28,748 bases of DNA from a virus. The notes beneath the pieces were generated by a model. That model ran no database searches. It was not told the DNA's origin and saw only the letters and a program-made list of their open reading frames with translations. This document shows positions 2,440 to 28,748 of the stretch, in pieces; within the stretch, counting starts at the first letter, position 1; each line of letters begins with the position of its first letter. The DNA is taken from the IMG/VR virus record IMGVR_UViG_3300011113_000618, positions 1 to 28,748 of that record, one strand, 5' to 3'. Position numbers and translations under genes: made by a program.

Positions 2440-2886
2440 TTAAATTAAATTTGTTGGAATATGAATTTTGTTAACCCGACGTTCGTGTCTTCCACCTTCG
2501 AACTTAGTTTCTAAGAAATAATCCAAGATATCTATCGCATCTTCTGCAGAGACGAACCTAGAAGGTATACACAATATATTTGCATTATTGTGTAACCTCG
2601 CCAAGGTTGCTATCTCCGAGTTCCAACAAATTGCCGCTCTTACGTTTTTCCATTTGTTGGATGTGATTGATACACCATTGCCAGACCCACACAGAAGAAC
2701 ACCGATAGTATCAGGTTCATTAGAAATTTTTTTCGCTACTTTGTGAGCATAGTCTGGGTAATCGACCGCTTCATAGGTGTCTGGTCCCAGATCCTCGACA
2801 ACTAAACCATTCGATTCTATTCTATTCTTCAGTAGTGATTTCAAATCAACTCCTGCGTGGTCTGATGCAATGTATACCTTAGTCAT
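2440..2886 (-). CDS. rpiB: Ribose-5-phosphate isomerase B (RpiB/LacAB family)
   Basis: At 148 residues this is the normal length for RpiB (149 in E. coli). It should interconvert ribulose 5-phosphate and ribose 5-phosphate in the non-oxidative pentose phosphate pathway. The N-terminal phosphate-binding strand ends in ASDHAG (D9, H10), followed by VDYPDYA and the active-site loop LLCGSGNGVS with catalytic-position C66, then RLHNNAN with H99. These fall at the same numbers as the catalytic residues of E. coli RpiB. The loop threonine at 68 is serine here, which is conservative. The gene is packed between the SSB gene (10 bases away) and uvsX (four bases away), so it is expressed with the replication genes. 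All key residues are present, so an active enzyme is expected. Its use for nucleotide supply during infection is inference. Confidence 0.93.
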   Translation of the reverse strand: MTKVYIASDHAGVDLKSLLKNRIESNGLVVEDLGPDTYEAVDYPDYAHKVAKKISNEPDTIGVLLCGSGNGVSITSNKWKNVRAAICWNSEIATLARLHNNANILCIPSRFVSAEDAIDILDYFLETKFEGGRHERRVNKIHIPTNLI

Positions 2887-4763: not shown

Positions 4764-7700
4764 TTAAATCAACTTGTACTCTTTGAGTTTTTCATAAACT
4801 TCTAGTCCCGTCCTGACAAATTGATCTTTTGAATTTTGATTAACTTCTAACCACTTTTTAAAATCTTCGGGTGTTTGAAATCTTTTCCTAGGCCAATAAT
4901 ACGACCATAATGTAAACATATTTGCAGCAAAATCTGCGGCAGTTTGCCATTTGTCACTATACCCAATGTTTTGATTTATAATCAATAGATTACTTCTTTC
5001 CGAAGTGAACCACAGATTGATGATAAAATCGATTGATTTTCCAAAATTTTCAAATGCTGCAAACGGTACACGATTGCCTAATGAATATTGTTTACAGACG
5101 TAGGTTGGAAGTAGATATTTATTTAATTGACCATAATTGATATTCGGTATTGGTGAAAAACCTCCTAAAGGTAAACCCCCCAAATCGAAATTGAAAGTGT
5201 TGAATTTCAAGTTATCGTGACCATTCATATATGCTGTGTAGAATACTATGGCTCTTACCTTGGATCTGTAACTTGCTGGAATATTTTGAGTTTTCTGTTT
5301 TAAAATAGTGGAGAAATTATTGAAAGTAATTCCAGTTGTAAATCCTTCACCCCCCTCCCATTCTCTATATGGTATTTCAGCAGATCTGATACTGTTAAAA
5401 CACAAGATACTAGGTGTCGTTGTATATTTTACATTTTCTTGAATTGAGTCGCTAATCGTTATATTATTATTTGTTGCACCAGAAGAAGGTGCACTAGTTT
5501 GTTTGAGTCTCCGTATTGATGCGAGTAATTCACCCAGAACGTTGTTATTAACAGATATAAGTTGTTTATCAATTTGTGGTAATGAGTAAAACGGTATTCG
5601 GATTCCTTCAAAGTAGGTTCTAAATGATCCCGCTTCTATTCGGTGTTCAACAGATTGAATTTGATAAGACCCATTGAACATTGGTACGTTTTTGAGGTTG
5701 AAGTACATTGTTGGTTGAAGAAGTGCGCAACCCAAAGCTTCAACTCTTACAGTATAACTTCTAGTTTTGTATAAATTATAAAGACTGAGACTACCTAATG
5801 TAGATCTTGCACCACCTGCTTGTGCTACTATCTCTGTAATAACCCTATTAGCTTCTGAAGTTGAGGCACCGATGATTTGATCTAAATTGATAGAACTAAA
5901 TATATTTTGATTCCTAGTTCCAAAATCTACATTGAATCCAATTACTCTGTTTGAATTTCCCCAATCTGTTTTTTTGGTTGATGGGACAGATAAAGGAATC
6001 TGATCTGAATCTAATTCAAAACTATCTGAACTCCATAAATAATTTGGGTTAGTTTTAAAACTTAGATGTTCACTAGGATTACCAACATAATAACACAAAA
6101 ATGCTGGTTGAGAATATCTCGTATCGACGTTTTGATATACCCCAAATAAATTATTTGCTATATCATTAACGGTTTGTGATTTTGGATCAATTCCATTTTG
6201 TACTTCACCATCACCCCACCAATTTATGTATGCAGGAATTGGCATCATAAAAAATTTATTATCTGCTATAATTTGACTCACAAAATCTATTACTCTTCCA
6301 TTCAAACTTGAATATGAATTAATAAAATTTAATAACTTGAATGGGTCAACTAAAAGATCTCCAACATCTCGGTTTGCTCTATCTAAAAATAGAACTTCTT
6401 GAAACAGAATTTTTTCATCGAAATTTGAACCAGCAATCCATTTGTCGTTAAACGATTTGAATGCTTCCCATAAATCTAGTTTCGGTGGTAACCCATCAAT
6501 TGCTGATAAGAGTGGTTTAGTGGTAGTTTCTTGTACTTGGGGTAATTGTTTTTGTAACTTATCGAATAAACTATCTAGTGTAACATTCAGAAAATTTTCT
6601 TTTTGGTTAAAAAACTCATTAACATCTCCTATAAAATCATTTCTAGAATAATTGTAATTTGTTGCAAACAACTTTTGTTTACCGAATAATTTGACTAATG
6701 GTGCTACAATTTCAATGTTTTCAGATGTGAAAGCTATATTCATTGTAATGAAAAAATCAGTGAAAAAACTACCACTATCGTCATATTCTAGATTTGGGTT
6801 TGTAGCAAAACCTACATATGTTTGTAAAGTCTTCCAAGCATCAATATTTTGAAGATACGAAACACCAAAACTAACGCCCGATCCATCTCCTGGTAATGTA
6901 CCATTCACGTATGGTTCGAACTTGTATTCATCGAAAACTCTATTTGTGGGATTAGTTGTGATACTACCAAATAATCTACGATCATAGTTTCCAGGATTTC
7001 CGTATCTGAAAGCCAAATTGTAATTTATAAAATTTTGTAATGCTTGTGTAATAGATCTTCCTTGTTCATCACTTAATGTATTTAGAAGGTCGACTTGTGT
7101 TCCTCCTTGTAATTTTTCAGATACCACCGCTTTATCAATAATTAAACAATTTGCAAAAACTTGTTGGAAAGTTCTGTTTGCTAAGTTATCGTCTGCCAAA
7201 TCAGACTCATCAAGTTGTCTAGTTGACCTTGTAAATTTCAAAAACTCAGCCTCAAAAGCATCCAAAATTTCTGTTTTGAAGACCCCGAAAATTTCTTCGA
7301 TATTAGAGTATGTATCGCTGAAGTTGAATGCTTTGGAATTTATTTCCGTAGGTAATATTGTGTTGAAATACTCATCATATCTCGGTTTTTCGATACTACT
7401 TAAATCGAAATATCCGAAGTTAGAGCAACCCCAAAAAAATCGAACCGATCCATCATTGACAGCTTTATTGTCAAAAATTTCTTGTGTTTGTATCAAATTG
7501 GCTCCTAGAAGTCGGAAACACTCAAATTGTACTTGATTGTAATTAGTTCCGAAACTTGGTAAAATAATTGTTTTATTTCTTGCATTTGTGTTAAATTTTG
7601 GAGAATCTTTTATGTCAAAAGATGTAAACCATCCAGCAAAATCCAAAGAACTATTAATATTACCTTGAGTGATATCATACCCTCTAGGTAGTCTTAAAAA

Positions 7701-10700
7701 AGAATTTGAAAGACCAATACTCAATCCTTCACTCACAACTTTATCTAAATCAACATCACTATAATCTGTAAAAAAATTTTGTCCCGTGAAAAAAAACAAG
7801 ACATCATTTATCAAACCAGGATAAAATCCAACGTATTTTCTTTTTATAGATTCTGATGTACCAGTTATAGTTATTGTTGTTTGTCCATACAAACTTATGT
7901 CGCTTCCAGACAAATTTTTGGTTTTATAATTATGTTGCAAATCACTAGTAATAGGATAGTAAATTTTTCCTATATCTACGTTTTTCCAAACAGAATCTAG
8001 TATATCTACACCAGTCTCGACATACTTTTTATAACGATGCCAAATCGATCCATATTTCAAAATCCAAGCATAAGGTATTCTATGGATCGCACCGAATTTT
8101 GTTAGTGTAGCATACAAATAATCATTACTTGGATTTTTAGAGTTATCTTCGGGATCAATTATATTTTTAAGAGGTTCACGTAGTGTTGATAATGGTAAAC
8201 TATTTAAAAACAAATATGCTGCAGTCAAATAAGGGTATTTCAAATCATCTCTGTCATTTTTAACTCCTTCAATAAAAGCGTTAATGAAGAAAGGAGTATT
8301 GAACATAGATACTGTTTGATTGGAATCAAGATTACCTGTGTTTCCATTATAGGATACTACACCTTCCGATATCAAAAAATTGTTATCTTTGATCTTATCG
8401 GTGTAATATTTATTGAAACCAAATGGTGTGTTTGCCCCTGTTTGTTGAACGTTCGCAACTAAATCAATTTGTGGTTGTGTATATTTTAAAAAAGAATTAT
8501 TCACAAACGGTCTATTATTGTTTATATCAACGTTTACTGTTTTTTCAAAATTAGTAATGAAGTTCAAGTTCTGATTCAAAAACAAACTTTTTGTTGTATT
8601 GTTATATCCTATTGTTTGTTTAGAAATATTTGATAAATTATTGTTCACCCAGATTGGGTCGACGAATGGGTAAAGATCTAGAAAATCAATAGAAGATGAT
8701 GAACTGTTTTTAATATATTGATCCACTTTCGATAATATTGTTGCATCCTCACTCGAAAATTGAGCACCAGAACTTATTACACTTGATTGTAATAATGAAA
8801 AATCTTTTTGAGTTTCAATTCTCAAATAATCGGAAGTAAATATACCACGTATAAACTGTTGCCATGAAACTCCAACCCCTTCATTTGAAATGTTACGTAA
8901 TACTTGAAGATAATTTGATGACCTAAATGCCGTGTTTTTGAGTATCTTTATTAGTCCTGGATTACCAAATGTGTTGAGAGCTTTTCTAATATTCACAACT
9001 TCCATTTCTGATAAGCTATCTGTTACACTCAAATTTTGTGCCGTAGGTCGAGAGAGTCTGTCCCAGTAAGTTTGTAAATAAATTCTTTCATAAATTTCAT
9101 ATAAAAATTTTACATCTTGTAAATCCGAAAATATTCTGTTTGTTGTTGGGAAATCGACAGCATTTACCGAAATTCTGGTCACAATTCGACCAACATCATT
9201 TTCTGCGACATTACCCGATTGTTGTGACTCACTTTGATTACTTTTTGCAAGACCTCGGATGTATTCTTCAACAAATTGAACTTCAGGCCAAATTTGGTAA
9301 TCTGAAGCTCTGGTTTTGGAAATTTCAGATTGTTCACCAGGATACATTGCAACGTATCTTGAAACCCCACTTTTGTCAACTTCTTGTTTCAAATATAAAG
9401 GCCAAGGATACACCTCTTGATTAACTAGGTTATCCTGATTTGTATCACGAGTATTTTGTTTGATGTCTGGTGAAACACCGTCTGAGTAACAGGCAGATTT
9501 TCGTATACTATTGTCTCGTTGTGACCAAGCCTGTCGATGTACCAAATTTAAAAGTCTATAGAAAGCTTCAACAGAAGCAAATATAATTGCCATAACATTT
9601 CTAATTGTCGGTTTGAAACCTAGACCATTGGGGCCTTCAACTTTTTTTGACAAAAACTCTGTCATCTTTTCAACAATCTGTTCCTTTTTCTGCCTTAGTT
9701 CTTCGAATGTCCTATCTAAAATATCTTCAAACTGACCTTGACCATCGAAAACAAATGCATACGTTGGGTATACCACATCTTCTGAGAGTTCCTGTAAAAT
9801 TGTGTAGAAGAATTGTTGTTCATCCGCCTGTAAAGTTGTAACTTCGAGGTCATTAGTTGGTTTTCTTTTGTTTCTCAATTCAAAAGTTTTAGGCCAATCG
9901 ATAGCATCTGGCGTAATTAGTTTCACGAAACTATTTGGTTTTACTACCGCTTTGTCGTTACTTCTACTAGCGTCTATTTCTTGAACAGTTTTAATTTCAC
10001 TTGGCGTGGGTGCATTGTTTCCGATTTTGTAGTTACCACCTACACCCAAAGTTTTATTTTTTGATAGTCCTGTTTCATATTCGGTTACAATTTTTTCAAG
10101 TTCACCTAAAGCATTTTCACCAGCCTGACTGTCAGATCTAATTGTTTGATTAAAAATATAAACGTATGTTAATGGTTCTCCATCAGGAGTTTTGAGAGCA
10201 AACACTTTGTTCGGATCGATAAATCGTCTTACCCAACTAGATGAGTCTGTAATGTCTATGATTGATCTCCTATAATCTTCTAATATACTAAAATACTCTT
10301 CACAATCAGTCAAAGGTGAGAAATCAGTTTGACCAAAAGTTGTTTCCAAATTTTTTTGTAATGCTTGTAATTGTGCTCTGAATTCTGGAAAAGTTACTTC
10401 TGGAAAGTTTTCGGCCAATAACCCCAAAGATTTATATTTTTTGTATACGTCTGAAATGAATTGTCTACCTCTAGTCGTCCTTTCGTTTCTAACTGTGACT
10501 TGATCGTTACCCACCGACACTTGTGCTGCGGCAAAACCCGCAGGTATTTCTTGAGTAATTTTAAAATCATTCGTGTACATAAACGGTGTTGCAAACAAGG
10601 CGCCAATTTGTGTTTCAGCTAACACTGTATATTTGTATGAATAAAATTGTAAATTAATTCTATAATTACCAGTTGCGGCTTCAAACGCTGCTGAAAATTT

Positions 10701-11330
10701 AGTGAGTATCAACTGATACTTAATTGCTTTACCATAATACCCTTTGATTGTTAAGTAAAAAGTAGGGTATGGAAGATTAAAGAAAAAAGCATATTCGGAT
10801 TTATCACCTTTTTCAAAAAGAGCCCTACCCATAGCATCTATAAGAACAATATCTACGGTTGGTGTAAAAGACCTTGTATTTTTTATAGCTATTGATTCAA
10901 TACCCAATAGACCAGTATCTTCGGTATTCTGTGTATTTTGTTTACCATAAAATTGATCCGTCTTACTTGGTTTACTAATTTGATCAATACTTTGTTGATT
11001 GATTCCTCTACCATCCAAAGTATTTAATCCAGTTATTTGGTCTGTATAGGTATTATCCAAAAAAGTTTTACCACCTGGTCTCAGAAAATTTATAGAGGCT
11101 AAAGTTTGTGTTTGAATTGCGTTTTCTAAATCTTGTCCCTGTATCAATTTAGTCCTTGGTAGCATCTGAGCTTCCAAATTGGCGTACATTACAAAATTCT
11201 CTTGATTGATGCCTCTCTCACTTACAATACCTTCTTTGGATATTGTCTTATTAGGGTCAACAATTATTATATTATCAACGTCTTTTACAACAAAAACATC
11301 TTCATTTGTTTTAGGAAAATTATCTGCCAT
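4764..11330 (-). CDS. Giant baseplate/tail structural protein (2188 aa)
   Basis: A very long, Asn/Gln/Ser/Phe-rich protein with no signal peptide or membrane segment. Two regions look like T4-like baseplate architecture. One near residues 145-260 (IAIKNTRSFTPTVDIVLID, then a GYYGKAIKY strand pair) is beta-rich. One near 1857-1915 (LGCALLQPTMYFNLKNVPMF, then GSYQIQSVEHRIEAGSF) resembles conserved strands in large baseplate or hub proteins. The last 200 or so residues form a separate helical domain (FTTGITFNNF to the end) that faintly resembles the N-acetylglucosaminidase/lysozyme fold. The gene starts inside the end of the gp53-like gene (11-base overlap) and ends the baseplate operon. A baseplate wedge or hub part is likely from context. 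The exact T4 counterpart cannot be named. Confidence 0.75.
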   Translation of the reverse strand: MADNFPKTNEDVFVVKDVDNIIIVDPNKTISKEGIVSERGINQENFVMYANLEAQMLPRTKLIQGQDLENAIQTQTLASINFLRPGGKTFLDNTYTDQITGLNTLDGRGINQQSIDQISKPSKTDQFYGKQNTQNTEDTGLLGIESIAIKNTRSFTPTVDIVLIDAMGRALFEKGDKSEYAFFFNLPYPTFYLTIKGYYGKAIKYQLILTKFSAAFEAATGNYRINLQFYSYKYTVLAETQIGALFATPFMYTNDFKITQEIPAGFAAAQVSVGNDQVTVRNERTTRGRQFISDVYKKYKSLGLLAENFPEVTFPEFRAQLQALQKNLETTFGQTDFSPLTDCEEYFSILEDYRRSIIDITDSSSWVRRFIDPNKVFALKTPDGEPLTYVYIFNQTIRSDSQAGENALGELEKIVTEYETGLSKNKTLGVGGNYKIGNNAPTPSEIKTVQEIDASRSNDKAVVKPNSFVKLITPDAIDWPKTFELRNKRKPTNDLEVTTLQADEQQFFYTILQELSEDVVYPTYAFVFDGQGQFEDILDRTFEELRQKKEQIVEKMTEFLSKKVEGPNGLGFKPTIRNVMAIIFASVEAFYRLLNLVHRQAWSQRDNSIRKSACYSDGVSPDIKQNTRDTNQDNLVNQEVYPWPLYLKQEVDKSGVSRYVAMYPGEQSEISKTRASDYQIWPEVQFVEEYIRGLAKSNQSESQQSGNVAENDVGRIVTRISVNAVDFPTTNRIFSDLQDVKFLYEIYERIYLQTYWDRLSRPTAQNLSVTDSLSEMEVVNIRKALNTFGNPGLIKILKNTAFRSSNYLQVLRNISNEGVGVSWQQFIRGIFTSDYLRIETQKDFSLLQSSVISSGAQFSSEDATILSKVDQYIKNSSSSSIDFLDLYPFVDPIWVNNNLSNISKQTIGYNNTTKSLFLNQNLNFITNFEKTVNVDINNNRPFVNNSFLKYTQPQIDLVANVQQTGANTPFGFNKYYTDKIKDNNFLISEGVVSYNGNTGNLDSNQTVSMFNTPFFINAFIEGVKNDRDDLKYPYLTAAYLFLNSLPLSTLREPLKNIIDPEDNSKNPSNDYLYATLTKFGAIHRIPYAWILKYGSIWHRYKKYVETGVDILDSVWKNVDIGKIYYPITSDLQHNYKTKNLSGSDISLYGQTTITITGTSESIKRKYVGFYPGLINDVLFFFTGQNFFTDYSDVDLDKVVSEGLSIGLSNSFLRLPRGYDITQGNINSSLDFAGWFTSFDIKDSPKFNTNARNKTIILPSFGTNYNQVQFECFRLLGANLIQTQEIFDNKAVNDGSVRFFWGCSNFGYFDLSSIEKPRYDEYFNTILPTEINSKAFNFSDTYSNIEEIFGVFKTEILDAFEAEFLKFTRSTRQLDESDLADDNLANRTFQQVFANCLIIDKAVVSEKLQGGTQVDLLNTLSDEQGRSITQALQNFINYNLAFRYGNPGNYDRRLFGSITTNPTNRVFDEYKFEPYVNGTLPGDGSGVSFGVSYLQNIDAWKTLQTYVGFATNPNLEYDDSGSFFTDFFITMNIAFTSENIEIVAPLVKLFGKQKLFATNYNYSRNDFIGDVNEFFNQKENFLNVTLDSLFDKLQKQLPQVQETTTKPLLSAIDGLPPKLDLWEAFKSFNDKWIAGSNFDEKILFQEVLFLDRANRDVGDLLVDPFKLLNFINSYSSLNGRVIDFVSQIIADNKFFMMPIPAYINWWGDGEVQNGIDPKSQTVNDIANNLFGVYQNVDTRYSQPAFLCYYVGNPSEHLSFKTNPNYLWSSDSFELDSDQIPLSVPSTKKTDWGNSNRVIGFNVDFGTRNQNIFSSINLDQIIGASTSEANRVITEIVAQAGGARSTLGSLSLYNLYKTRSYTVRVEALGCALLQPTMYFNLKNVPMFNGSYQIQSVEHRIEAGSFRTYFEGIRIPFYSLPQIDKQLISVNNNVLGELLASIRRLKQTSAPSSGATNNNITISDSIQENVKYTTTPSILCFNSIRSAEIPYREWEGGEGFTTGITFNNFSTILKQKTQNIPASYRSKVRAIVFYTAYMNGHDNLKFNTFNFDLGGLPLGGFSPIPNINYGQLNKYLLPTYVCKQYSLGNRVPFAAFENFGKSIDFIINLWFTSERSNLLIINQNIGYSDKWQTAADFAANMFTLWSYYWPRKRFQTPEDFKKWLEVNQNSKDQFVRTGLEVYEKLKEYKLI

Positions 11331-11640
11331 AATAGAAAAAATGATTATTTAAAGCATTTTGGTAATCCTGCAAAGATGTTATCAAAGGGAATGGAATACG
11401 AATAATGGAATTATCTGGTATATTCCATTCCAATCCCCCGTATTGTGGGTTTCCTTGTAAAATTAACCAACCGAAAAAAGGTGAATTGTAATATTGTTGG
11501 GAAACTTTATCCAATCTACTTACGGCTGTTCTATAAATAAACCTCTGATCTGTTCCTTTAGATGGTAGTGAAACAAATGGAACAACAGTTTGTTGACCAT
11601 TTATTAGAAATTGTTCATAACGATTATAATATTGATCCAT
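11320..11640 (-). CDS. 53: Baseplate wedge protein, gp53-like
   Basis: 106 residues matching the pattern of the T4 gp53 family, a wedge subunit that joins baseplate arms: an N-terminal DQYYNRYEQF, then VPFVSLPSKGTDQRFIYRT, SRLDKVSQQYYNSPFFGWLIL, a GNPQYGG turn, and the C-terminal NSIIRIPFPL with a LysM-like ending. T4 gp53 is 196 residues, so this is a compact version holding just the core. It is coupled to both neighbours. Its ATG shares one base with the stop of the 1639-residue gene (TAATG), and its end overlaps the start of the 2188-residue gene by 11 bases. Co-translation of three baseplate parts supports the assignment. Confidence 0.8.
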   Translation of the reverse strand: MDQYYNRYEQFLINGQQTVVPFVSLPSKGTDQRFIYRTAVSRLDKVSQQYYNSPFFGWLILQGNPQYGGLEWNIPDNSIIRIPFPLITSLQDYQNALNNHFFYYGR

Positions 11641-14600
11641 TAGTTGAATTTCTTTTTGAGGTTAAATACATTTGGATTTTGGTCAATATTATTTGGAGAA
11701 TATAAATTGACCAATTGTGTTTTTACTAGATCAGTTGGGAAAAAGTTTTCTTGAAAATCAATTACTCTTTGTATTTGAGGGCCAGTATTTGATGTAAACG
11801 CTGGTGTAAAATTTACAAAATTTTTACCTAATGTTTGTTTATACGTTTCCAAGAGTTGTACTCCTGTAATTGTTAATGTATCATAGGTGTTTTTCAATAA
11901 AGTTCCATAGTACTGATAAACAATATCTCTGACAAGAGGGGATAACCCCTCAGAAAGATCTCTAAGAAATTGTTGAAGTGCTGTTTGATCTGTGTATATT
12001 TTACATAGAATCAAATATTCAGCTTGTTGGGGTGAACTAAGAAGTGCGGTTGATGAACCAAATACATTTGCTGTGTAATATATGAAAGAATTTTCTGGTT
12101 GATTTAATGGTCTTTCTAAATCACTTTGGAAATACATATCATTATAAAGTTTTCCATCATATAGTGAAATTAAAAAATAATTTAAATCGGCAGAAATTGA
12201 CTGTAAATCGTTGACTAACTTAGTTTGTGGTGTTGTGTCACCAACAAAATTATAAATTACTGGTGCACCTTTAGTATTTATTTTTCCATCAGACAAATTT
12301 TTACCCAAAAAGGTTGCTTTATCTATTTCATAAACATAATTTTGTTGAAATCTGACTAAGTCTGATACCCACTCCGTTAAATCATTGATGAAGCTTGATC
12401 TATAAGTAATTAAAAATCTTTGATAATTTGATTTGAATATTTCTTTTTGTGTTTGGGTAACTGATTGATTATTCATAGGACCTAAACTATAAGTTGTGCC
12501 AGATGTACCGACACTGGCCTCATTAAAAATATTGAGATTTTGACTTTGTATGTAATTAGATAAAATTTCAAATATTTTATCAACATTCAGTTGATATAAC
12601 AATGGTTTACCATAGATATAGACAGGGTTAACAATTAATATTCCCTCGTGATATCCCAAATTTCCACCGTATTTTGTGTTTAATAGTGTGAGCATTCCAT
12701 AGCCATATTTCCTAAGAATTTTTTCAAAAAAACTAATTGTAAATGTAAAATAGTTTTGAGTATCCGTTAAGAATTGTGATACAAAATTTGTATAATCCAA
12801 GTTTCCAGTAATACCTGAAAGATTTGATCCAGTTTGAGTAAGAATCCCAATTGTGTCACCCCCCAAATTTTGTATTTGTTGCTCCAAATTCGTTACTCCA
12901 ACTGTCGGTAGTTTGTTCTGTAACTTTTCTATAATTTGTTGGTCTAGAGCATTGAATGAAGTATCGGTCGATTCGGCTCTTTCGTCGTATACTTCGGTGT
13001 TTGCATAATAGTTAAATGACAATGCGTTCTGTAATGTTTCTATTGGTTTAGCTAAACCTGATCCACCTATAAAATTGAACCCCATAGAAATATTTGCTAT
13101 CATAGGTTGAAATCCAATACCCTCTGGGTTCATATCATATATTTTTTCGTATGTAATTGCAAAAGATGTTGGTATCACTTTTGTGTTGTAGAAATCTCCA
13201 ATCCTTAAAACCAACACTGGTGGAGCACCGAATGATGTATTTAATGCATCATTAGTGATTGGTTTTCCATCTGGACCGATTGTTGGGATTGTATCTCCCG
13301 GTCGTGCACATTGTTGAATAAAAGTTAATCGTGCATTTAATCCCTCTGGTGTCATTGAGTGGAATGACGGGTGAAAATGTTTAAGTTTATTTTTTATCGA
13401 ATCAAATGCAAAAAAATCTGTTTCTTTTAAAACTTCGAAGTAGTCACATTCGTTCAGAAGTAAGCGTAATAACTTTTTAGAAGCGCCTTTGTATAGATCT
13501 TTCGTAGGTTGACTTATAGAAACAGGTTTTGGTCTGACGGAAGTTTGGTTTTCTCTCCCATCTTGTGTCAAAACAATGTTAGAGCCCACATTTGCTGGTT
13601 CAGGGTTTACAGGTGTTGTTGTTACTGTTATGGATTGAATGTTTGAAACCCTACAAGCCATTGCGTGAACTGAATAGATTTTCGTTGAACCAGTAAGATT
13701 GGTAGAACAATCAAAACTATTTAAACACATACCATCACCAGTTTTTGGATTGACAATTGTTGTTTCCCCCTGAGCTATACCATTTATTACGATACGAGAA
13801 CCAATGAAGTCGGATAATGTTTTATTACCATCGAATTGGAAATTTTGAAAAAATTTTAAAGCTGATTCGTTTCGTCTCTGTGAAAGGGATAAATTATATG
13901 GTTCTGACCCAGGTGACGATGCTGCCGAAAAAAGAGTAATTTTAACCAACGCATTTTGATCTTGAGATAATAAATCGTATATTTTTTTGCAAAACTCTTG
14001 AATTTTATTGAAATTACCTTCCACAACTTGAGTAAAAAATTCTTGTACAGGTTGTTTTTGAGATGATGGTTTTGTATTTGTTTGATACAAATTTTTGTTG
14101 TTCTGAGAAACGTAGGTTTCATATAATGGTCTGAAGTCTTGTTGGGGTTGTTTTGGGATATCATTGTCAAAATAAAAACCAAAATTTACATATTCATCAA
14201 AAGATGGCGTTGTTGGTTGATTTTGTGTTGTCTTGATATCCACCGATTGTGGGTCTGGTTTTATGTTGTTTATAGCATCTTGATATTGTTCCTCAGTTAC
14301 ATTTGGATTGTTAACTACTTGTTGCCAAGCCTGTAAGTCTGATAATGGAACATTATTGTAAATTGCGGCCAATTCATAAAGATCATATTTTTTACACCCA
14401 GCAAAAAATGAATTGATAACTTGATCAGCGATTTGTCTTGATCCTTCATTTGCCAAAACTTTTTGTGCAACCAAATTCAAAATAGATGGATGATCAACTA
14501 AAATTTTCCATTTCAACGTTCCAGATCTGGTTGTATTCTTGTAGGTATAAATTGGTTCAGGTCTTCCTAGAAAAGTTGTTTCATTGAAAGATGGTCTAGT

Positions 14601-16559
14601 GTCCTCACTGAAATCTAAATCATACGGTGGAAACCACATAATTCTACCACCATTTGGGCCTTGTTCGCATTTTGGTAAATCTTGATACCTGAGTCCTGGT
14701 CTTGAGGATGTTCTCCAAGCCAAATTTTCTATAGAAAACATATATTTTTTTACACCCCCCTCGCCTCGTAACATTGAATCTCCACCTTTTTCTGGTGCTA
14801 TGTTCAACTGATAAGTTTTATCGAGAATTGAATATGAAGCTTTTCTGATATTACCATCTGACTTTTGTAGATCGCCATATGAAATGTAAGGAGTATCTTT
14901 GGTAAAAACTCTACAATATTCTAAGGGTGTATTTAGTTGATTTGGGGTAAAACTTATTACTCTCGAGCCTTTTGTTATTTGTTTGTATCCATCATCAAAA
15001 ATTTTACTCGTTTGATTAATTGCGTTTCCAACATGAGAATATTTACGTCCATCTAATGGCATTGACTCGACAAGTCTTTGTGTGTCATCTAAAATTGAAC
15101 CTGCTTTAAAAGTATATCTCGATGATTCACTATTGGTAAATTGATTTGCTATATTTGGGTAGTCAGGGTCTTGTTCACCTGACGAACCGTTTGGTCGTAC
15201 ACGTTTTCCAGCATCTGGTGCTAGTTTTGAATTCATCCAACTTAATCCCCCTGTGATATCTCCCTGACTTTGATATGTCTCCCCTATGAACCCAAAATTA
15301 AGTCTTTCTGAAAGTTCTTGTCCCTCATACTCTTTACCAAGAACTTGTGGACCATAAACTGGTGCTAAAATTTCTTCACCAAATTCATTGATTGGTATCA
15401 CCCCTGGAGGTGAGTTCAAATATATTGGTTCTCGTTCTGGTGAACCAACATAGTACAATCCTTGACCCAAATCTTGTGCTACAGAACCAAATATAGCTTG
15501 TCCGATTGCTGATATTATTCCACGTCCTCCCGTGTTATATCTCGGTCTATATCTGTTGTAATCTAAGTTATTCGTAAGTTGAGCTCTTTGTCCCTCACCA
15601 GTATAATCCAAAAATAGTTGTGAAGGGGAGGTTGGTCTACTTCCAAATAATCCAAACACACCCCCTCTTCTTCCACCCTCACTTGCTCTAGCTAATGACT
15701 GTGTCGAATTAATAGTTCTTTGTTCATTGTCCACTGTAAAATAATCCCCAGGTATTGGTGAGAACGGTAATGTAAATCCAGCAATCCTTTGTACAATATC
15801 TTGACCTTGTGATAAAATATTCCCACCACCCGAAGTGATTTTGTAATCTCTGAATATAAGGGGTCTTTTACCTGCGACAATTAATGATAAATTTATAGGA
15901 TCTTGTAAACCATTTAGAATGTTTACTCGGCCTAAAGTTTCTGTTCGAACATTTTGATCTATTCTTTGTTGGTATGCTTTTTTCAAAAATTCAACACCGA
16001 GTTGAGCAAGTTCTGAATCTTGAAGAACATTTCCATTTGAACCTGTTGGTATTTCTTGTAGTAATACACTAAATGGTGAGTACGTAGAAGGTCTGAAACT
16101 AGGTGGATCCCAATACGTAGAATTCTTCTGTACCTTTACAATGTCTCCTATATCATAATAACGTATAAAACCTTCTCTAGGTGAATACTCATTTTTTATT
16201 TGACCCTTCTTTTGAAAAGAAGTTGAGAACAATTTTAGTTCATTTGTATAGGGGGGGAATGGTCCGTATGGTCCTCTGTTTGTTGGATTTTGAGAAACAC
16301 TAATTAATCCTGAAATATCTTTTTTGAAACCACCTTCAGGTCCGAATTGATTTGTAAGATATAAACCATCCGCAAAAGGTGACAAATCAATAAGTTCATC
16401 TGGCGAATCAACCACTGAATATTGACTTGGTTGATACTCATTTGGTGTGTTGGACACCGAATATGCAAACGCACCTGGTTTGGTATACGGTCTTAGGTTA
16501 CGACCTATTAAACTATTACGTATTGCTGATGTTGCGGCGAAAGTTAGTTTGGATGGCAT
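11640..16559 (-). CDS. Large baseplate/tail protein with OmpA-like segment (1639 aa)
   Basis: A large soluble virion-type protein. Residues about 640-700 contain FLGRPEPIYTYKNTTRSGTL followed by WKILVDHPS, and about 1110-1165 contain VLVLRIGDFYNTKVIPTSF and a NPEGIGFQPMIANISMGF strand. Both are beta-rich patterns I associate with phage tail and baseplate proteins. Between them, at about 865-990, VKITLFSAAS, then GSEPYNLSLSQRRNESALKF and an IVINGIAQGE strand resemble the peptidoglycan-binding OmpA C-terminal domain. The LSxRR arginine is kept, but the usual TD aspartate is replaced by small residues. A Gly/Arg-rich stretch lies near 290-350. The gene has its own leader with TATTTAT and is followed with one-base overlap by the gp53-like gene. 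A baseplate or hub part is likely. The precise T4 equivalent is not clear. Confidence 0.75.
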   Translation of the reverse strand: MPSKLTFAATSAIRNSLIGRNLRPYTKPGAFAYSVSNTPNEYQPSQYSVVDSPDELIDLSPFADGLYLTNQFGPEGGFKKDISGLISVSQNPTNRGPYGPFPPYTNELKLFSTSFQKKGQIKNEYSPREGFIRYYDIGDIVKVQKNSTYWDPPSFRPSTYSPFSVLLQEIPTGSNGNVLQDSELAQLGVEFLKKAYQQRIDQNVRTETLGRVNILNGLQDPINLSLIVAGKRPLIFRDYKITSGGGNILSQGQDIVQRIAGFTLPFSPIPGDYFTVDNEQRTINSTQSLARASEGGRRGGVFGLFGSRPTSPSQLFLDYTGEGQRAQLTNNLDYNRYRPRYNTGGRGIISAIGQAIFGSVAQDLGQGLYYVGSPEREPIYLNSPPGVIPINEFGEEILAPVYGPQVLGKEYEGQELSERLNFGFIGETYQSQGDITGGLSWMNSKLAPDAGKRVRPNGSSGEQDPDYPNIANQFTNSESSRYTFKAGSILDDTQRLVESMPLDGRKYSHVGNAINQTSKIFDDGYKQITKGSRVISFTPNQLNTPLEYCRVFTKDTPYISYGDLQKSDGNIRKASYSILDKTYQLNIAPEKGGDSMLRGEGGVKKYMFSIENLAWRTSSRPGLRYQDLPKCEQGPNGGRIMWFPPYDLDFSEDTRPSFNETTFLGRPEPIYTYKNTTRSGTLKWKILVDHPSILNLVAQKVLANEGSRQIADQVINSFFAGCKKYDLYELAAIYNNVPLSDLQAWQQVVNNPNVTEEQYQDAINNIKPDPQSVDIKTTQNQPTTPSFDEYVNFGFYFDNDIPKQPQQDFRPLYETYVSQNNKNLYQTNTKPSSQKQPVQEFFTQVVEGNFNKIQEFCKKIYDLLSQDQNALVKITLFSAASSPGSEPYNLSLSQRRNESALKFFQNFQFDGNKTLSDFIGSRIVINGIAQGETTIVNPKTGDGMCLNSFDCSTNLTGSTKIYSVHAMACRVSNIQSITVTTTPVNPEPANVGSNIVLTQDGRENQTSVRPKPVSISQPTKDLYKGASKKLLRLLLNECDYFEVLKETDFFAFDSIKNKLKHFHPSFHSMTPEGLNARLTFIQQCARPGDTIPTIGPDGKPITNDALNTSFGAPPVLVLRIGDFYNTKVIPTSFAITYEKIYDMNPEGIGFQPMIANISMGFNFIGGSGLAKPIETLQNALSFNYYANTEVYDERAESTDTSFNALDQQIIEKLQNKLPTVGVTNLEQQIQNLGGDTIGILTQTGSNLSGITGNLDYTNFVSQFLTDTQNYFTFTISFFEKILRKYGYGMLTLLNTKYGGNLGYHEGILIVNPVYIYGKPLLYQLNVDKIFEILSNYIQSQNLNIFNEASVGTSGTTYSLGPMNNQSVTQTQKEIFKSNYQRFLITYRSSFINDLTEWVSDLVRFQQNYVYEIDKATFLGKNLSDGKINTKGAPVIYNFVGDTTPQTKLVNDLQSISADLNYFLISLYDGKLYNDMYFQSDLERPLNQPENSFIYYTANVFGSSTALLSSPQQAEYLILCKIYTDQTALQQFLRDLSEGLSPLVRDIVYQYYGTLLKNTYDTLTITGVQLLETYKQTLGKNFVNFTPAFTSNTGPQIQRVIDFQENFFPTDLVKTQLVNLYSPNNIDQNPNVFNLKKKFN

Positions 16560-18787: not shown

Positions 18788-18928
18788 TTACGTAGATGAT
18801 ATTTTATCTAGTAATCTTTTCCTCCAAAAAATTGGCATATTCAAATAATCAGAATAAGATACATTACATCTTTGGTTCAGAATAAAAAATTCGTCTACTT
18901 GGTAAGCTCTATAATCAGAAGAAAACAC
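18788..18928 (-). CDS. Small overlapping protein, possible tail assembly chaperone part (46 aa)
   Basis: A 46-codon frame overlaps the 3' end of the gp26-like gene by 14 bases. Reading from GTG at 18928 it gives a compact, coherent peptide (DYRAYQVDEFFILNQRC, then NMPIFWRKRLLDKI), with the look of the helical second product of tail assembly chaperone pairs. It fills nearly all of the space before the tape measure gene. An upstream TTG in the same frame is another possible start. The preceding gene ends in a run of six T (GAATTTTTTCGT), and this frame is +1 (equivalently -2) to it, so frameshifted expression is also possible. No family is recognised with certainty, but codon pattern and position argue for a real gene. 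Confidence 0.62.
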   Translation of the reverse strand: MFSSDYRAYQVDEFFILNQRCNVSYSDYLNMPIFWRKRLLDKISST

Positions 18929-26418: not shown

Positions 26419-26574
26419 ATGAAAAAAACAACCAAAAACATTAAAATTTCAATAGATTCACACACCAAGCTAAAAAAATTCTGTGATGATAATGGAATAA
26501 AAATCTATAAGTTTTTGGAAAAACTCATCGAACAAAATTGTACCAAGAAAAAAGATATCTATGGTGAAGATTAA
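26419..26574 (+). CDS. Small ribbon-helix-helix-type DNA-binding protein (51 aa)
   Basis: This is the only convincing plus-strand gene. Its 51 residues read as a short basic N-terminus, a strand (KNIKISID), helix A (SHTKLKKFCDDNG), a turn and helix B (IYKFLEKLIEQN), and a basic/acidic tail. Length and order fit the Arc/CopG/MetJ ribbon-helix-helix class, which binds operators as dimers through the strand. It lies in the gap between the sheath start and the end of the FISUMP tail gene. Its stop is six bases from that gene's stop, so the two converge with no visible terminator. It may regulate nearby phage promoters or host genes. The target is unknown. Because it is so short, expression needs proof. 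Confidence 0.68.
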   Translation: MKKTTKNIKISIDSHTKLKKFCDDNGIKIYKFLEKLIEQNCTKKKDIYGED

Positions 26575-26580
26575 AGACTC

Positions 26581-28692
26581 TTAGACAAGATCTCTAACAC
26601 AACGAATACATAGAGCTGAGTTTGGTGGCGCGGCTTCTCCTCCAAAACCAGCGCCTTCACAAGCAATATAATTTACCGTAGTTGGTTGTAAAAAATTGTA
26701 ATTAGTGGTCCACCACCAAGCACCGTCACCTCCAGCGATAACAGGGTCACAATTCCCAAATTCATCAGAACGGATACTTCCGCTAGGATACGCTGAAAAA
26801 TCACTAGAGTTTGTAGGAGTAGGTTCAAAAGGGAATATGGTCCATCCGTAAGGAGGACCTGGTGTGGTAGCTTTAATTTGTTGAGTCACACCTGAATAAA
26901 GGGCTAACGGGGCTCCTTCCCCCCCTAAAGGATAAAAATTAGAAGGATTATAACCAGGAAATATACCGCCATTCAAAGAGGTTATTAAATTATACCAATC
27001 TCCACTACTAGCTGGTCTGAATCCTACGGGACAAATACCACGTACGTCGGTGATAGTAAAATAATTATAAAGTTTACCAGCGGTCTGATTGTAATTAGGG
27101 TCGTCAGGGGAATTGCCACTCAATTGGGTATACATCCATGCCCCCTCGCCACTGAACGAACAAAATGGTTCGGTGTTACCAGATAAATAACCTCTATATG
27201 GTATTATATCCCCATTGTTGTAATGAGTGGTTTTCATATTACCCCCCAACCACACACGGTTACCAATTATAATTTGTTCATAAGTATTACCATCATAGTC
27301 AGTTACTAAGGGAAGAGTGTTTGTTGGTGTTGGTGTGGGAGTGATAGAACTAGTAATTACTGGTGTTGGTGTTATTGAACTAGTAATTGTTGGTGTTGGT
27401 GTTGGTGTTATTGAACTAGTAATTGTTGGTGTTGGGGTATTGGAACTTGTTGGTGTTGGTGTTATTGAACTAGTAATTGTTGGTGTTGGGGTATTGGAAC
27501 TTGTTGGTGTTAATGTTGGAGATGGTGTTACAGAGGGTGTTGGTGTATTAGTTGGTGTGTTTGTAGGGGTAACTGTATTACTCGGTGTAACGGATGGGGT
27601 TGGAAGATCAAAAGTTAAGTTTTGGGGTGATCCGATCAAAGAAACCGCATAAGTAATAATTGAGGTTGGATCGTTATTTTGTTGCGTGATCTCAAACCTC
27701 AATCGATCGCCTGTATTTACCTCAAAATTGATTACATTGGTCCCATAAAAATCAAATTCAGAACTATTACTCAAACTAACAAATAGATCATATGAACTTA
27801 CATTCTGAGTTGACAATATGGTAAAAGTTCCTGTATAATCAACATTTATCGTACGAACTACAGGAGAATTTCTAACCGCTTGAACTGTCAGATCAAATAC
27901 ACCTTCATTTACAGGAAATACTTTTCTTTTTCGATTGATTGGTTTGAAATTTGTTTCGAAAACATTCAATACTCTTGATACCGCAGGAGCCACCTCGAAT
28001 TTGTCTTGATCTAAAATGAATCCCAACATAGTAAAATCATAATTTTGAATATAAAATCTACGTTTGTCGATTTGAGTTACAGATTCATCAGAAATGTTTG
28101 AGTTTATAATCGGAATAAAATGACCATTGACTTTTGTGTAAGCTTGACGAGACGCGAAAGTTTGAAGTACATTTTTATTAAACTCGTTGAGTTCTCTCAT
28201 ACGATTACAAATTATTTTAACGTTAAAAGAAATATCAACGGGTACAGGTTGGGGAATTTTATAAATGTCTAATCCCTTAATGTTACCATTCCAAGTAGGG
28301 ACTGCCGCATAAAAAAATTCTTTTTGATTTGGGATATTATAAAGTGTTGCTGGGTTTGTACCATATTTAACTTCAGGAACTCTAACAACAGTAATAAATG
28401 GTGGTTCTGTGTTACCATTCAAATCTTGAAAAGACCACGTCTGTGTAAATTGAGCCCAATTTTGTGTGGTGATAAGAATGTCAACAGTAGGTATAATCTT
28501 ACCATCAACGATTGTTTTTAATTCGTTTTTTACAAAATCCAAAAACCCCCTATCTAAATCAGCATAATCTAAATTCTTTGGAAGGTATGTACCATCGTTT
28601 GTGATATCCTCCAACAATTGTTCTCTTCGCTCCAATAATATTTTTGGAGGAACTAAATTAATATTTGGTATTACTTTTTTGGGTAAAGCCAT
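26581..28692 (-). CDS. Chimeric tail protein: N-terminal tail domain, Pro/Thr repeats, FISUMP domain
   Basis: 703 residues in four parts. Residues 1-250 or so (DVKIIPTVDILITTQNW-like start, PVPVDISFNVKIICNRMREL) resemble a tail completion or terminator domain such as T4 gp15, which is a guess based on style and position before the sheath. About 255-362 is a beta-sandwich-like segment. About 364-460 is a Thr/Pro/Ser linker with repeated ITSSITPTPT and SSNTPTPT units. From about 461, DYDGNTYEQIIIGNRVWLGG, then MKTTHYNNGD, AGKLYNYFTITDVRGICPVG, DFSAYPSGSIR, GGDGAWWWTTNY and ALCIRCVRDLV match the FISUMP (Fibrobacter succinogenes major paralogous) domain found on Bacteroidota surface proteins. The linker would hold this domain away from the tail. 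It starts two bases after the upstream partial gene. Confidence 0.8.
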   Translation of the reverse strand: MALPKKVIPNINLVPPKILLERREQLLEDITNDGTYLPKNLDYADLDRGFLDFVKNELKTIVDGKIIPTVDILITTQNWAQFTQTWSFQDLNGNTEPPFITVVRVPEVKYGTNPATLYNIPNQKEFFYAAVPTWNGNIKGLDIYKIPQPVPVDISFNVKIICNRMRELNEFNKNVLQTFASRQAYTKVNGHFIPIINSNISDESVTQIDKRRFYIQNYDFTMLGFILDQDKFEVAPAVSRVLNVFETNFKPINRKRKVFPVNEGVFDLTVQAVRNSPVVRTINVDYTGTFTILSTQNVSSYDLFVSLSNSSEFDFYGTNVINFEVNTGDRLRFEITQQNNDPTSIITYAVSLIGSPQNLTFDLPTPSVTPSNTVTPTNTPTNTPTPSVTPSPTLTPTSSNTPTPTITSSITPTPTSSNTPTPTITSSITPTPTPTITSSITPTPVITSSITPTPTPTNTLPLVTDYDGNTYEQIIIGNRVWLGGNMKTTHYNNGDIIPYRGYLSGNTEPFCSFSGEGAWMYTQLSGNSPDDPNYNQTAGKLYNYFTITDVRGICPVGFRPASSGDWYNLITSLNGGIFPGYNPSNFYPLGGEGAPLALYSGVTQQIKATTPGPPYGWTIFPFEPTPTNSSDFSAYPSGSIRSDEFGNCDPVIAGGDGAWWWTTNYNFLQPTTVNYIACEGAGFGGEAAPPNSALCIRCVRDLV
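27338..27600. repeat. Tandem coding repeats in the Pro/Thr linker
   Basis: DNA repeats inside the chimeric tail gene built on an 18-bp step (six residues). The word beginning TTATTGAACTAGTAATTG recurs at 27372, 27408 and 27462 (offsets 36 and 54), with a diverged copy near 27338. A 54-bp unit is present twice almost exactly. The reading frame is kept, so changes in copy number would alter linker length. Confidence 0.9.
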
Positions 28693-28694
28693 AA

Positions 28695-28748
28695 TTAAAT
28701 CCCCATAAATTCGTTAGCAGTTACTGGTGTTGCAATGTAACTGACATA
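28695..28748 (-). CDS. C-terminal end of an upstream gene (partial)
   Basis: The right edge reads as an open frame of 17 codons (YVSYIATPVTANEFMGI) ending in TAA at 28695-28697. Its stop is two bases from the ATG of the chimeric tail protein, typical of a tight operon. The chimeric gene has no promoter-like motif of its own, which also suggests read-through from this gene. Too little is visible to name it. Confidence 0.5.
   Translation of the reverse strand, partial: YVSYIATPVTANEFMGI

Follow-up and report, generated by a model that had tools for sequence, protein, structure and literature searches.

The virus record IMGVR_UViG_3300011113_000618, which was analysed over its whole length of 28,748 bases (here called the window), encodes a 703-aa fusion of a gp15-like tail terminator and a FISUMP domain in a single ORF (26581..28692, minus strand), an architecture that is also found on two related contigs, L002 and L010. 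We consider it reasonably probable that this protein is a tail terminator of the gp15 type displaying an exchangeable adhesin, and it is the display and the binding that we infer. The steps that lead to this reading are computed, namely, the ORF, the FISUMP match, a gp15-like predicted fold, the gene order, extensions limited to one clade of relatives, modules that differ within that clade, and breaks in sequence identity at the linker.

The fusion ORF has 703 codons, an ATG start, and no internal stops. The initial annotation had proposed a virion tail protein, encoded before the sheath and joined through a Pro/Thr linker to a FISUMP domain, and each element of that proposal was recovered: the frame is unbroken, the N-terminal part is a terminator by predicted fold in a gene located before the sheath gene, a 97-residue Pro/Thr/Ser stretch precedes FISUMP, and the C-terminal domain scores over the Pfam cut-off across the whole profile. 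Its expectation of gp15-like and FISUMP hits from profile search and structure prediction was borne out by the FISUMP match in Pfam and by the gp15-like predicted fold, and no gp15-like match appeared by sequence. The motifs NTYEQIIIGN, KLYNYF, and RGICPVGFRP that it quoted are present, and the end reads IRCVRDLV rather than IRCVRD. Its suggestion that the domain may be displayed at the neck for adhesion was put forward as inference, as it is here. The fusion architecture is kept in L002 (97% in the best segment, query 1-703) and in L010 (84%, query 1-701). At 28695..28748 (minus strand) lies the end of the preceding gene, which is 171 aa in L002; these 54 bases are identical at 54/54 positions to L002 3987-4040, the 3' end of L002 ORF 3525-4040. 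The gp15 gene comes directly after this preceding gene in the window and in another relative, L083, and not in L002; in the window the two genes adjoin, so there is no protease gene between them.

The terminator fold is predicted for residues 39-231 (28000..28578, minus strand). An AF2 model of the N-terminal part, built from 37 sequences, is of moderate quality (pLDDT 70.8, pTM 0.45), and its best match in VIA-align is T4 gp15 (4huh_E, Z 11.5, rmsd 3.7, 146 residues). The top 32 rows of that comparison comprise 30 neck, tail or collar entries from phages, GTAs or tailocins, all matching within residues ~35-259, and 2 uncharacterised proteins. In a Foldseek search of the PDB the T4 portal-neck-tail complex ranks first (E 3.6e-6), and among the viral predicted structures of BFVD the top matches are uncharacterised and are followed by several named gp15 or tail sheath stabilisers. 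The T4 gp15 fold match, the agreement of Foldseek and BFVD, and the position of the gene before the sheath gene are our grounds for reading this part as a terminator, and we regard the structural matches as good evidence, at the level of a model, for a terminator fold. In sequence searches, Pfam, PHROGs, and NCBIfam gave only weak matches to the N-terminal part, which we take as noise, as we do the best hit of a PDB profile search (E 0.096). The fold is followed by a predicted beta-sandwich domain at residues 261-352 (27637..27912, minus strand), which lies within the length common to stand-alone homologues; its matches to assorted beta-sandwich proteins, including the PBSX exported protein XepA (6i56, Z 7.7), have Z scores of 7.7-8.2, a range in which matches can arise by chance, and indicate the fold class only.

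The linker, delimited by composition, spans residues 366-462 (27307..27597, minus strand) and contains 36 Thr, 24 Pro, and 16 Ser among its 97 residues. Its DNA holds a 54-bp direct repeat (27394..27511, minus strand; 2.2 copies, 100%). Behind it, the FISUMP or Fib_succ_major domain occupies residues 476-700 (26593..27267, minus strand) and matches profile positions 3-187 of 187 of PF09603 with 63.6 bits in the protein search (gathering cut-off, 33.9); searching the record in all six frames places a 66.8-bit match at 26593-27267. TIGR02145, the NCBIfam FISUMP model, scores 40.7 bits, about 1 bit below its cut-off of 41.65 (profile 6-176 of 176, E 4e-10), and the homologues in L010 and L083 score 64.5 and 38.3 bits with it. 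We observe 18 invariant columns in an alignment of nine FISUMP domains, four of them from the clade described below and the other five from Bacteroidota MAGs (three) and further phage contigs (two). The Bacteroidota domains (L110, L114, and L117) share 29-32% identity with that of the window; they lie on bacterial MAG contigs, and no gp15 core was seen in the frames read there. An AF2 model of FISUMP from 5 sequences reached a pLDDT of 30.4, and PDB profile searches with 5 or 9 FISUMP sequences returned no relative at E <0.07 (best E, 0.075). The available text of PMC8143477 describes a C-type-lectin-like fold for the Fib_succ_major family.

The next tail gene downstream encodes a 1072-aa tail sheath protein (23083..26301, minus strand; PF04984 and PF17482 over cut-off, phrog_23 at 6.9e-57). 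After the sheath come two proteins, one matching DUF7487 and Mom below threshold and one matching no family, then the tube (19774-20262), and, downstream of the tube, a T4-type baseplate protein (18915-19664) with other large ORFs beyond. A gp32-like SSB, RpiB, a RecA-like recombinase (sub-threshold), and a 5'-3' exonuclease are encoded further downstream, the RpiB gene being a ribose/galactose isomerase gene (LacAB_rpiB, 177.8 bits) at 2440-2886 (minus strand) between the SSB and recombinase genes. Three further features of this region were recorded. Among the tail genes, a 1639-aa protein (11640-16559, minus strand) has a weak OmpA-family match at residues 852-926 (23 bits; cut-off, 27.2). 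A tandem repeat with a 114-bp unit (20298-20510; 1.9 copies, 98% alike) separates the tube gene from the next upstream gene. Between the gp15 fusion and the sheath, a 51-codon ORF lies on the opposite strand (26419-26574, plus strand), with counterparts of 49-56 aa ending in D(I/L)YG(E/D) at the same place in all 14 relatives examined; our impression is that its product looks like a small ribbon-helix-helix protein.

Among named phages, the recombinase matches only the Flavobacterium phage immuto group (43.9%, 4 records), and the best-listed phage records for the sheath, at 30-40%, are an uncultured phage, a Microcystis phage, and Synechococcus phages. Judged from its genes, the virus is likely an uncultured, T4-like phage with a Bacteroidota host. 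Immuto (Immutovirus, NC_055915) resembles the window in the SSB-recombinase-exonuclease and sheath-tube-hub-tape orders, whereas the window adds RpiB and has two genes between sheath and tube. The immuto sheath measures 709 aa by coordinates versus 1072 aa in the window, and in tblastn neither the gp15 core nor FISUMP matches immuto. The likeness to T4 gp15 (4huh, 4hud) lies in the predicted fold of residues 39-231 and in a gene placed in the neck-to-sheath region. However, T4 gp15 is a 272-aa protein, to which the window protein adds the beta-sandwich, the Pro/Thr linker, and FISUMP, and T4 has genes 16 and 17 between genes 15 and 18 where the window has the sheath as the next tail gene.

Homologues were collected from IMG/VR scans (the best 80 of 209 and the best 80 of 203 matches) plus further loci; 150 ORF matches gave 83 distinct proteins, and setting aside 4 that were cut or started late left 79 distinct complete ones. 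Among the matches listed, the core is ~345 residues long and mostly stands alone before the sheath gene: 73/79 proteins are 333-356 aa, including one of 333 aa that is open at its 5' end and one of 350 aa (L011) that is frame-broken and lies on the same contig as L083. The remaining six, again among the matches listed, are extended to 512-920 aa. All six fall within one 13-row clade in the tree of 79 (support, 100/100), together with seven unextended rows. The label "extended" needs at least three changes on this tree, which both a single origin with losses and several gains would fit. FISUMP is fused to the core in three of the 79 distinct complete homologues among the matches listed (window, L002, and L010), in agreement with the earlier remark that the domain is not standard in tail terminators. 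Elsewhere in the clade, L003-L008 encode two distinct 512-aa proteins that carry only a Cys-containing domain of ~95 residues after the core, and the 920-aa protein of L009 carries the Cys-containing domain and further domains. As far as these sequences tell, FISUMP is one of several C-terminal modules in one small clade and not a fixed feature. Gene order around the core is constant, with the 171-aa gene, the gp15 core, and the sheath following one another in 68/68 loci where all three were found; this survey covered 82 loci with the gp15 core, L011 and L083 being counted separately though they are one contig. A tblastn search with either half of the protein, the gp15 core or FISUMP, found no match among 50,697 phage records (E limits, 0.01 and 0.001).

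We observe that sequence identity between relatives changes abruptly inside the linker or at its edge. L002 and L083 are 99.3% identical over 6,051 bp from L002 position 7765 onward, through the sheath, and upstream of this block they share matching blocks of only 82-86%. Position 7765 of L002 is codon 589, within the linker and ~11 codons ahead of FISUMP. The FISUMP domains of these two contigs differ at one of 240 aligned residues, and the L083 copy sits behind the linker of a 684-aa protein, not behind gp15. The first 400 residues of that protein resemble the neighbouring proteases but are without the GDSG, TNxHV, and DAA motifs, and we describe it as degenerate and serine-protease-like. 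In L083 itself the gp15 frame stops at 350 aa (L083 1470-1600), and the linker and other domains continue in another frame; on this one contig a mutation, an assembly error, and a programmed shift would look alike. Between the window and L002, identity is 95.2% up to position 1270 of the window read in reverse (codon ~405, in the linker) and is followed by a block of 81.9%, and dS is 0.23 in gp15 versus 1.77 in the sheath. L002 and L009 share 95.4% up to codon ~520, at the linker edge, and the next block, from the gene end on, shares 79%. Ahead of the sheath gene on the L009 contig, the 3' end of the FISUMP gene is matched exactly over 21 bases, which weakly suggests, given so short a match, that FISUMP formerly ended there and has since been lost. 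The conserved core, the optional extension, the differing modules, and the identity breaks at the linker are what lead us to regard the C-terminal part as an exchangeable module.

Pro/Thr/Ser-rich proteins are not confined to the terminator in these phages. We scanned the L002 contig, read in pieces, for ORFs of at least 100 aa in which Pro, Thr, and Ser make up 60% or more of some 40-residue stretch and found 11: two Ser-rich ORFs antisense to a longer ORF, which are probably not genes, the gp15 fusion, and eight others, some of them cut by piece or contig ends. Six of these eight were scanned with Pfam; three have surface-type domains and three have nothing over cut-off. The domains in the former three (L198 805-3510; L195 7765-10533, minus strand; L194 14778-18848) are SprB repeats (92.3 bits; cut-off, 28), Y_Y_Y just over its cut-off, DUF285 in two proteins, and a cohesin match under its cut-off. 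These are kinds of domain that occur in surface proteins, SprB in those of gliding Flavobacteriia. In addition, serine-protease-like genes lie near the terminator gene in L002 (4049-5953), L003-L006, L008, L009 (758-6000 and 8767-11320), and L083 (2691-4013 and 4042-6096). The L009 locus has five of them and the same contig has one more (L123). Two of the scanned proteins match phrog_20754, and GDSG is present in 7/9 proteins compared, the other two being without GDSG, TNxHV, and DAA. Directly after the terminator gene of L019, a 1,935-residue open frame with several Pro/Thr linkers (7247-13051) runs off the locus. Sheath proteins can also be rich in these residues: 23/81 loci with a sheath ORF have at least 62% Pro/Thr/Ser within 50 residues, L025 (2608-5937) being the example read.

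Within FISUMP, the C-terminal part (residues 544-703; 26584..27063, minus strand) changes faster between the window and L002. Amino-acid identity is 0.62 and dN/dS 0.39 over these last ~160 codons, compared with 0.95 and 0.11 over the first 80 FISUMP codons and 0.997 and 0.01 in gp15; the sheath has a dN/dS of 0.04, and the gp15 and sheath comparisons together span 0.01-0.09. Six pairs were compared among the window, L002, L083, and L085. For the second part dN/dS is 0.32-0.40 in 5/6 pairs and 0.15 in the near-identical pair L002-L083, and for the first part it is 0-0.14 in 5/6 pairs. The exception is the window-L085 pair, which goes the opposite way, with 0.64 in the first 80 codons, on 9 differences, versus 0.39 in the second part. 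This concentration of change in one half of FISUMP may be relaxed or diversifying, and is not proof of positive selection, because a dN/dS of 0.39 is below 1.

A variable C-terminal part is what would be seen if the FISUMP end were a DGR target, diversified by reverse transcription from a template repeat, and Fib_succ_major domains are reported as DGR targets in Bacteroides phages and human-microbiome metagenomes in the available portions of PMC8143477 and PMC4159848. For the present phage we give this explanation hardly any credence. A reverse transcriptase (RVT_1) was found in 0/11 records, which are fragments and include the window and the 131,753-base L002, and four records searched for a template repeat hold no second copy of the FISUMP end beyond stretches of at most 21 bases. 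The 151 mismatches between the window and L002 copies are spread across all substitution types and show no adenine bias, with A in 35/151 positions of the window copy and 41/151 of the L002 copy. With reverse transcriptase, template repeat, and adenine bias all not found in these records, which may be incomplete, DGR diversification is disfavoured.

The main rival to an adhesin on the terminator is decoration that has no role in infection: the tethered domains would stabilise the neck, space the particles, or bind debris or exopolymer, with no effect on which host is infected. We judge it unlikely, if clearly worth weighing, since 73/79 relatives among the matches listed have no extension, the modules are optional even inside the 13-row clade, and L002 encodes other Pro/Thr/Ser-rich proteins; yet the C-terminal part of FISUMP changes faster, which fits binding better, as does the adhesin and DGR-target role proposed in Bacteroides phages, in what is accessible of PMC8143477 and PMC4159848. 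The adhesin-like reading itself leans on the DGR-target Fib_succ_major/DUF1566 proteins of Bacteroides phages, which the available text of PMC8143477 likens to a fimbrial tip protein. Those of the Bacteroides uniformis (Bacuni) siphophages belong to the same domain family and, according to the same partial text, have a proposed function in host adhesion; they are DGR targets, whereas in the window the domain sits on the tail terminator of a T4-like phage and a DGR was not found.

It is also conceivable, at a low probability, that the fusion is not a real gene, the reads of co-occurring phages having been joined during assembly at the repetitive linker. In favour of such a chimera are the perfect 54-bp repeat in the linker, the identity jumps within it or at its edge, and L083, with a gp15 frame of 350 aa and a separate gene for FISUMP. 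Linker repeats are possible misjoin sites in short-read assemblies, and single mosaics such as L083 could be artefacts; however, misassembly cannot easily explain one fused frame in the window, L002, and L010 alike, the latter two having different sample numbers, nor the gp15-linker-other domain arrangement on L003-L009, where, as elsewhere, every fused frame is open to its stop. The initial annotation had named an artefact with two separate genes in related phages as a refutation, and this is partly what L083 presents, with the fusion nevertheless standing on three contigs. A slim chance remains for a different identity of the N-terminal part, as another tail protein, e.g., a neck or completion protein of similar fold. 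Features of this fold recur among terminators, completion proteins, and certain other proteins of the tail, a distal-tail protein is present low in the BFVD match list, and no similarity emerged when the 37-row alignment was compared by hhalign with the single T4 gp15 sequence, a result still compatible with homology. T4 gp15 nevertheless comes first by structure, and the position before the sheath gene fits a terminator.

If the protein is indeed a terminator displaying an adhesin, it would cap the head-proximal end of the contractile tail, and in this clade a flexible Pro/Thr/Ser linker with a terminal domain would have been added to it. The T4 tail terminator assembles as a ring. With such a ring, several FISUMP copies would be tethered flexibly at the neck end. 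By binding a glycan or a surface protein, on the host or in its matrix, they might aid capture or adsorption as an addition to, and not a substitute for, the baseplate fibres. If the repetitive linker DNA recombined, one displayed domain would be exchanged for another and the essential cap left undisturbed, and binding could thus be varied without a diversity-generating retroelement. We extend this only tentatively, to a scheme we doubt somewhat more than we believe, in which the terminator is a mount for exchangeable surface-binding cassettes (FISUMP, Cys-containing domains, and others), with the linker DNA as a recombination joint between the cap and the protease-like proteins and as the basis of RT-free diversification.

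The available parts of PMC8143477 and PMC4159848 already describe FISUMP in phages, both as a domain for adhesion and as a DGR target. Its proposed function in phage adhesion is therefore not new, and its placement on a tail terminator appears to be, since we found no description of a terminator-FISUMP fusion in the portions of the open-licence literature available to us.

The usual places to look for receptor-binding and adhesive domains are the baseplate and fibres. If the reading given here is true, the neck too can serve for binding to the host or its matrix, through optional modules on the essential tail cap, and a conserved part of the virion would offer a fusion site that is used in nature. 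It would also extend FISUMP from the DGR-diversified proteins of siphophages to a virion protein of a T4-like phage, in which variation apparently arises by recombination.
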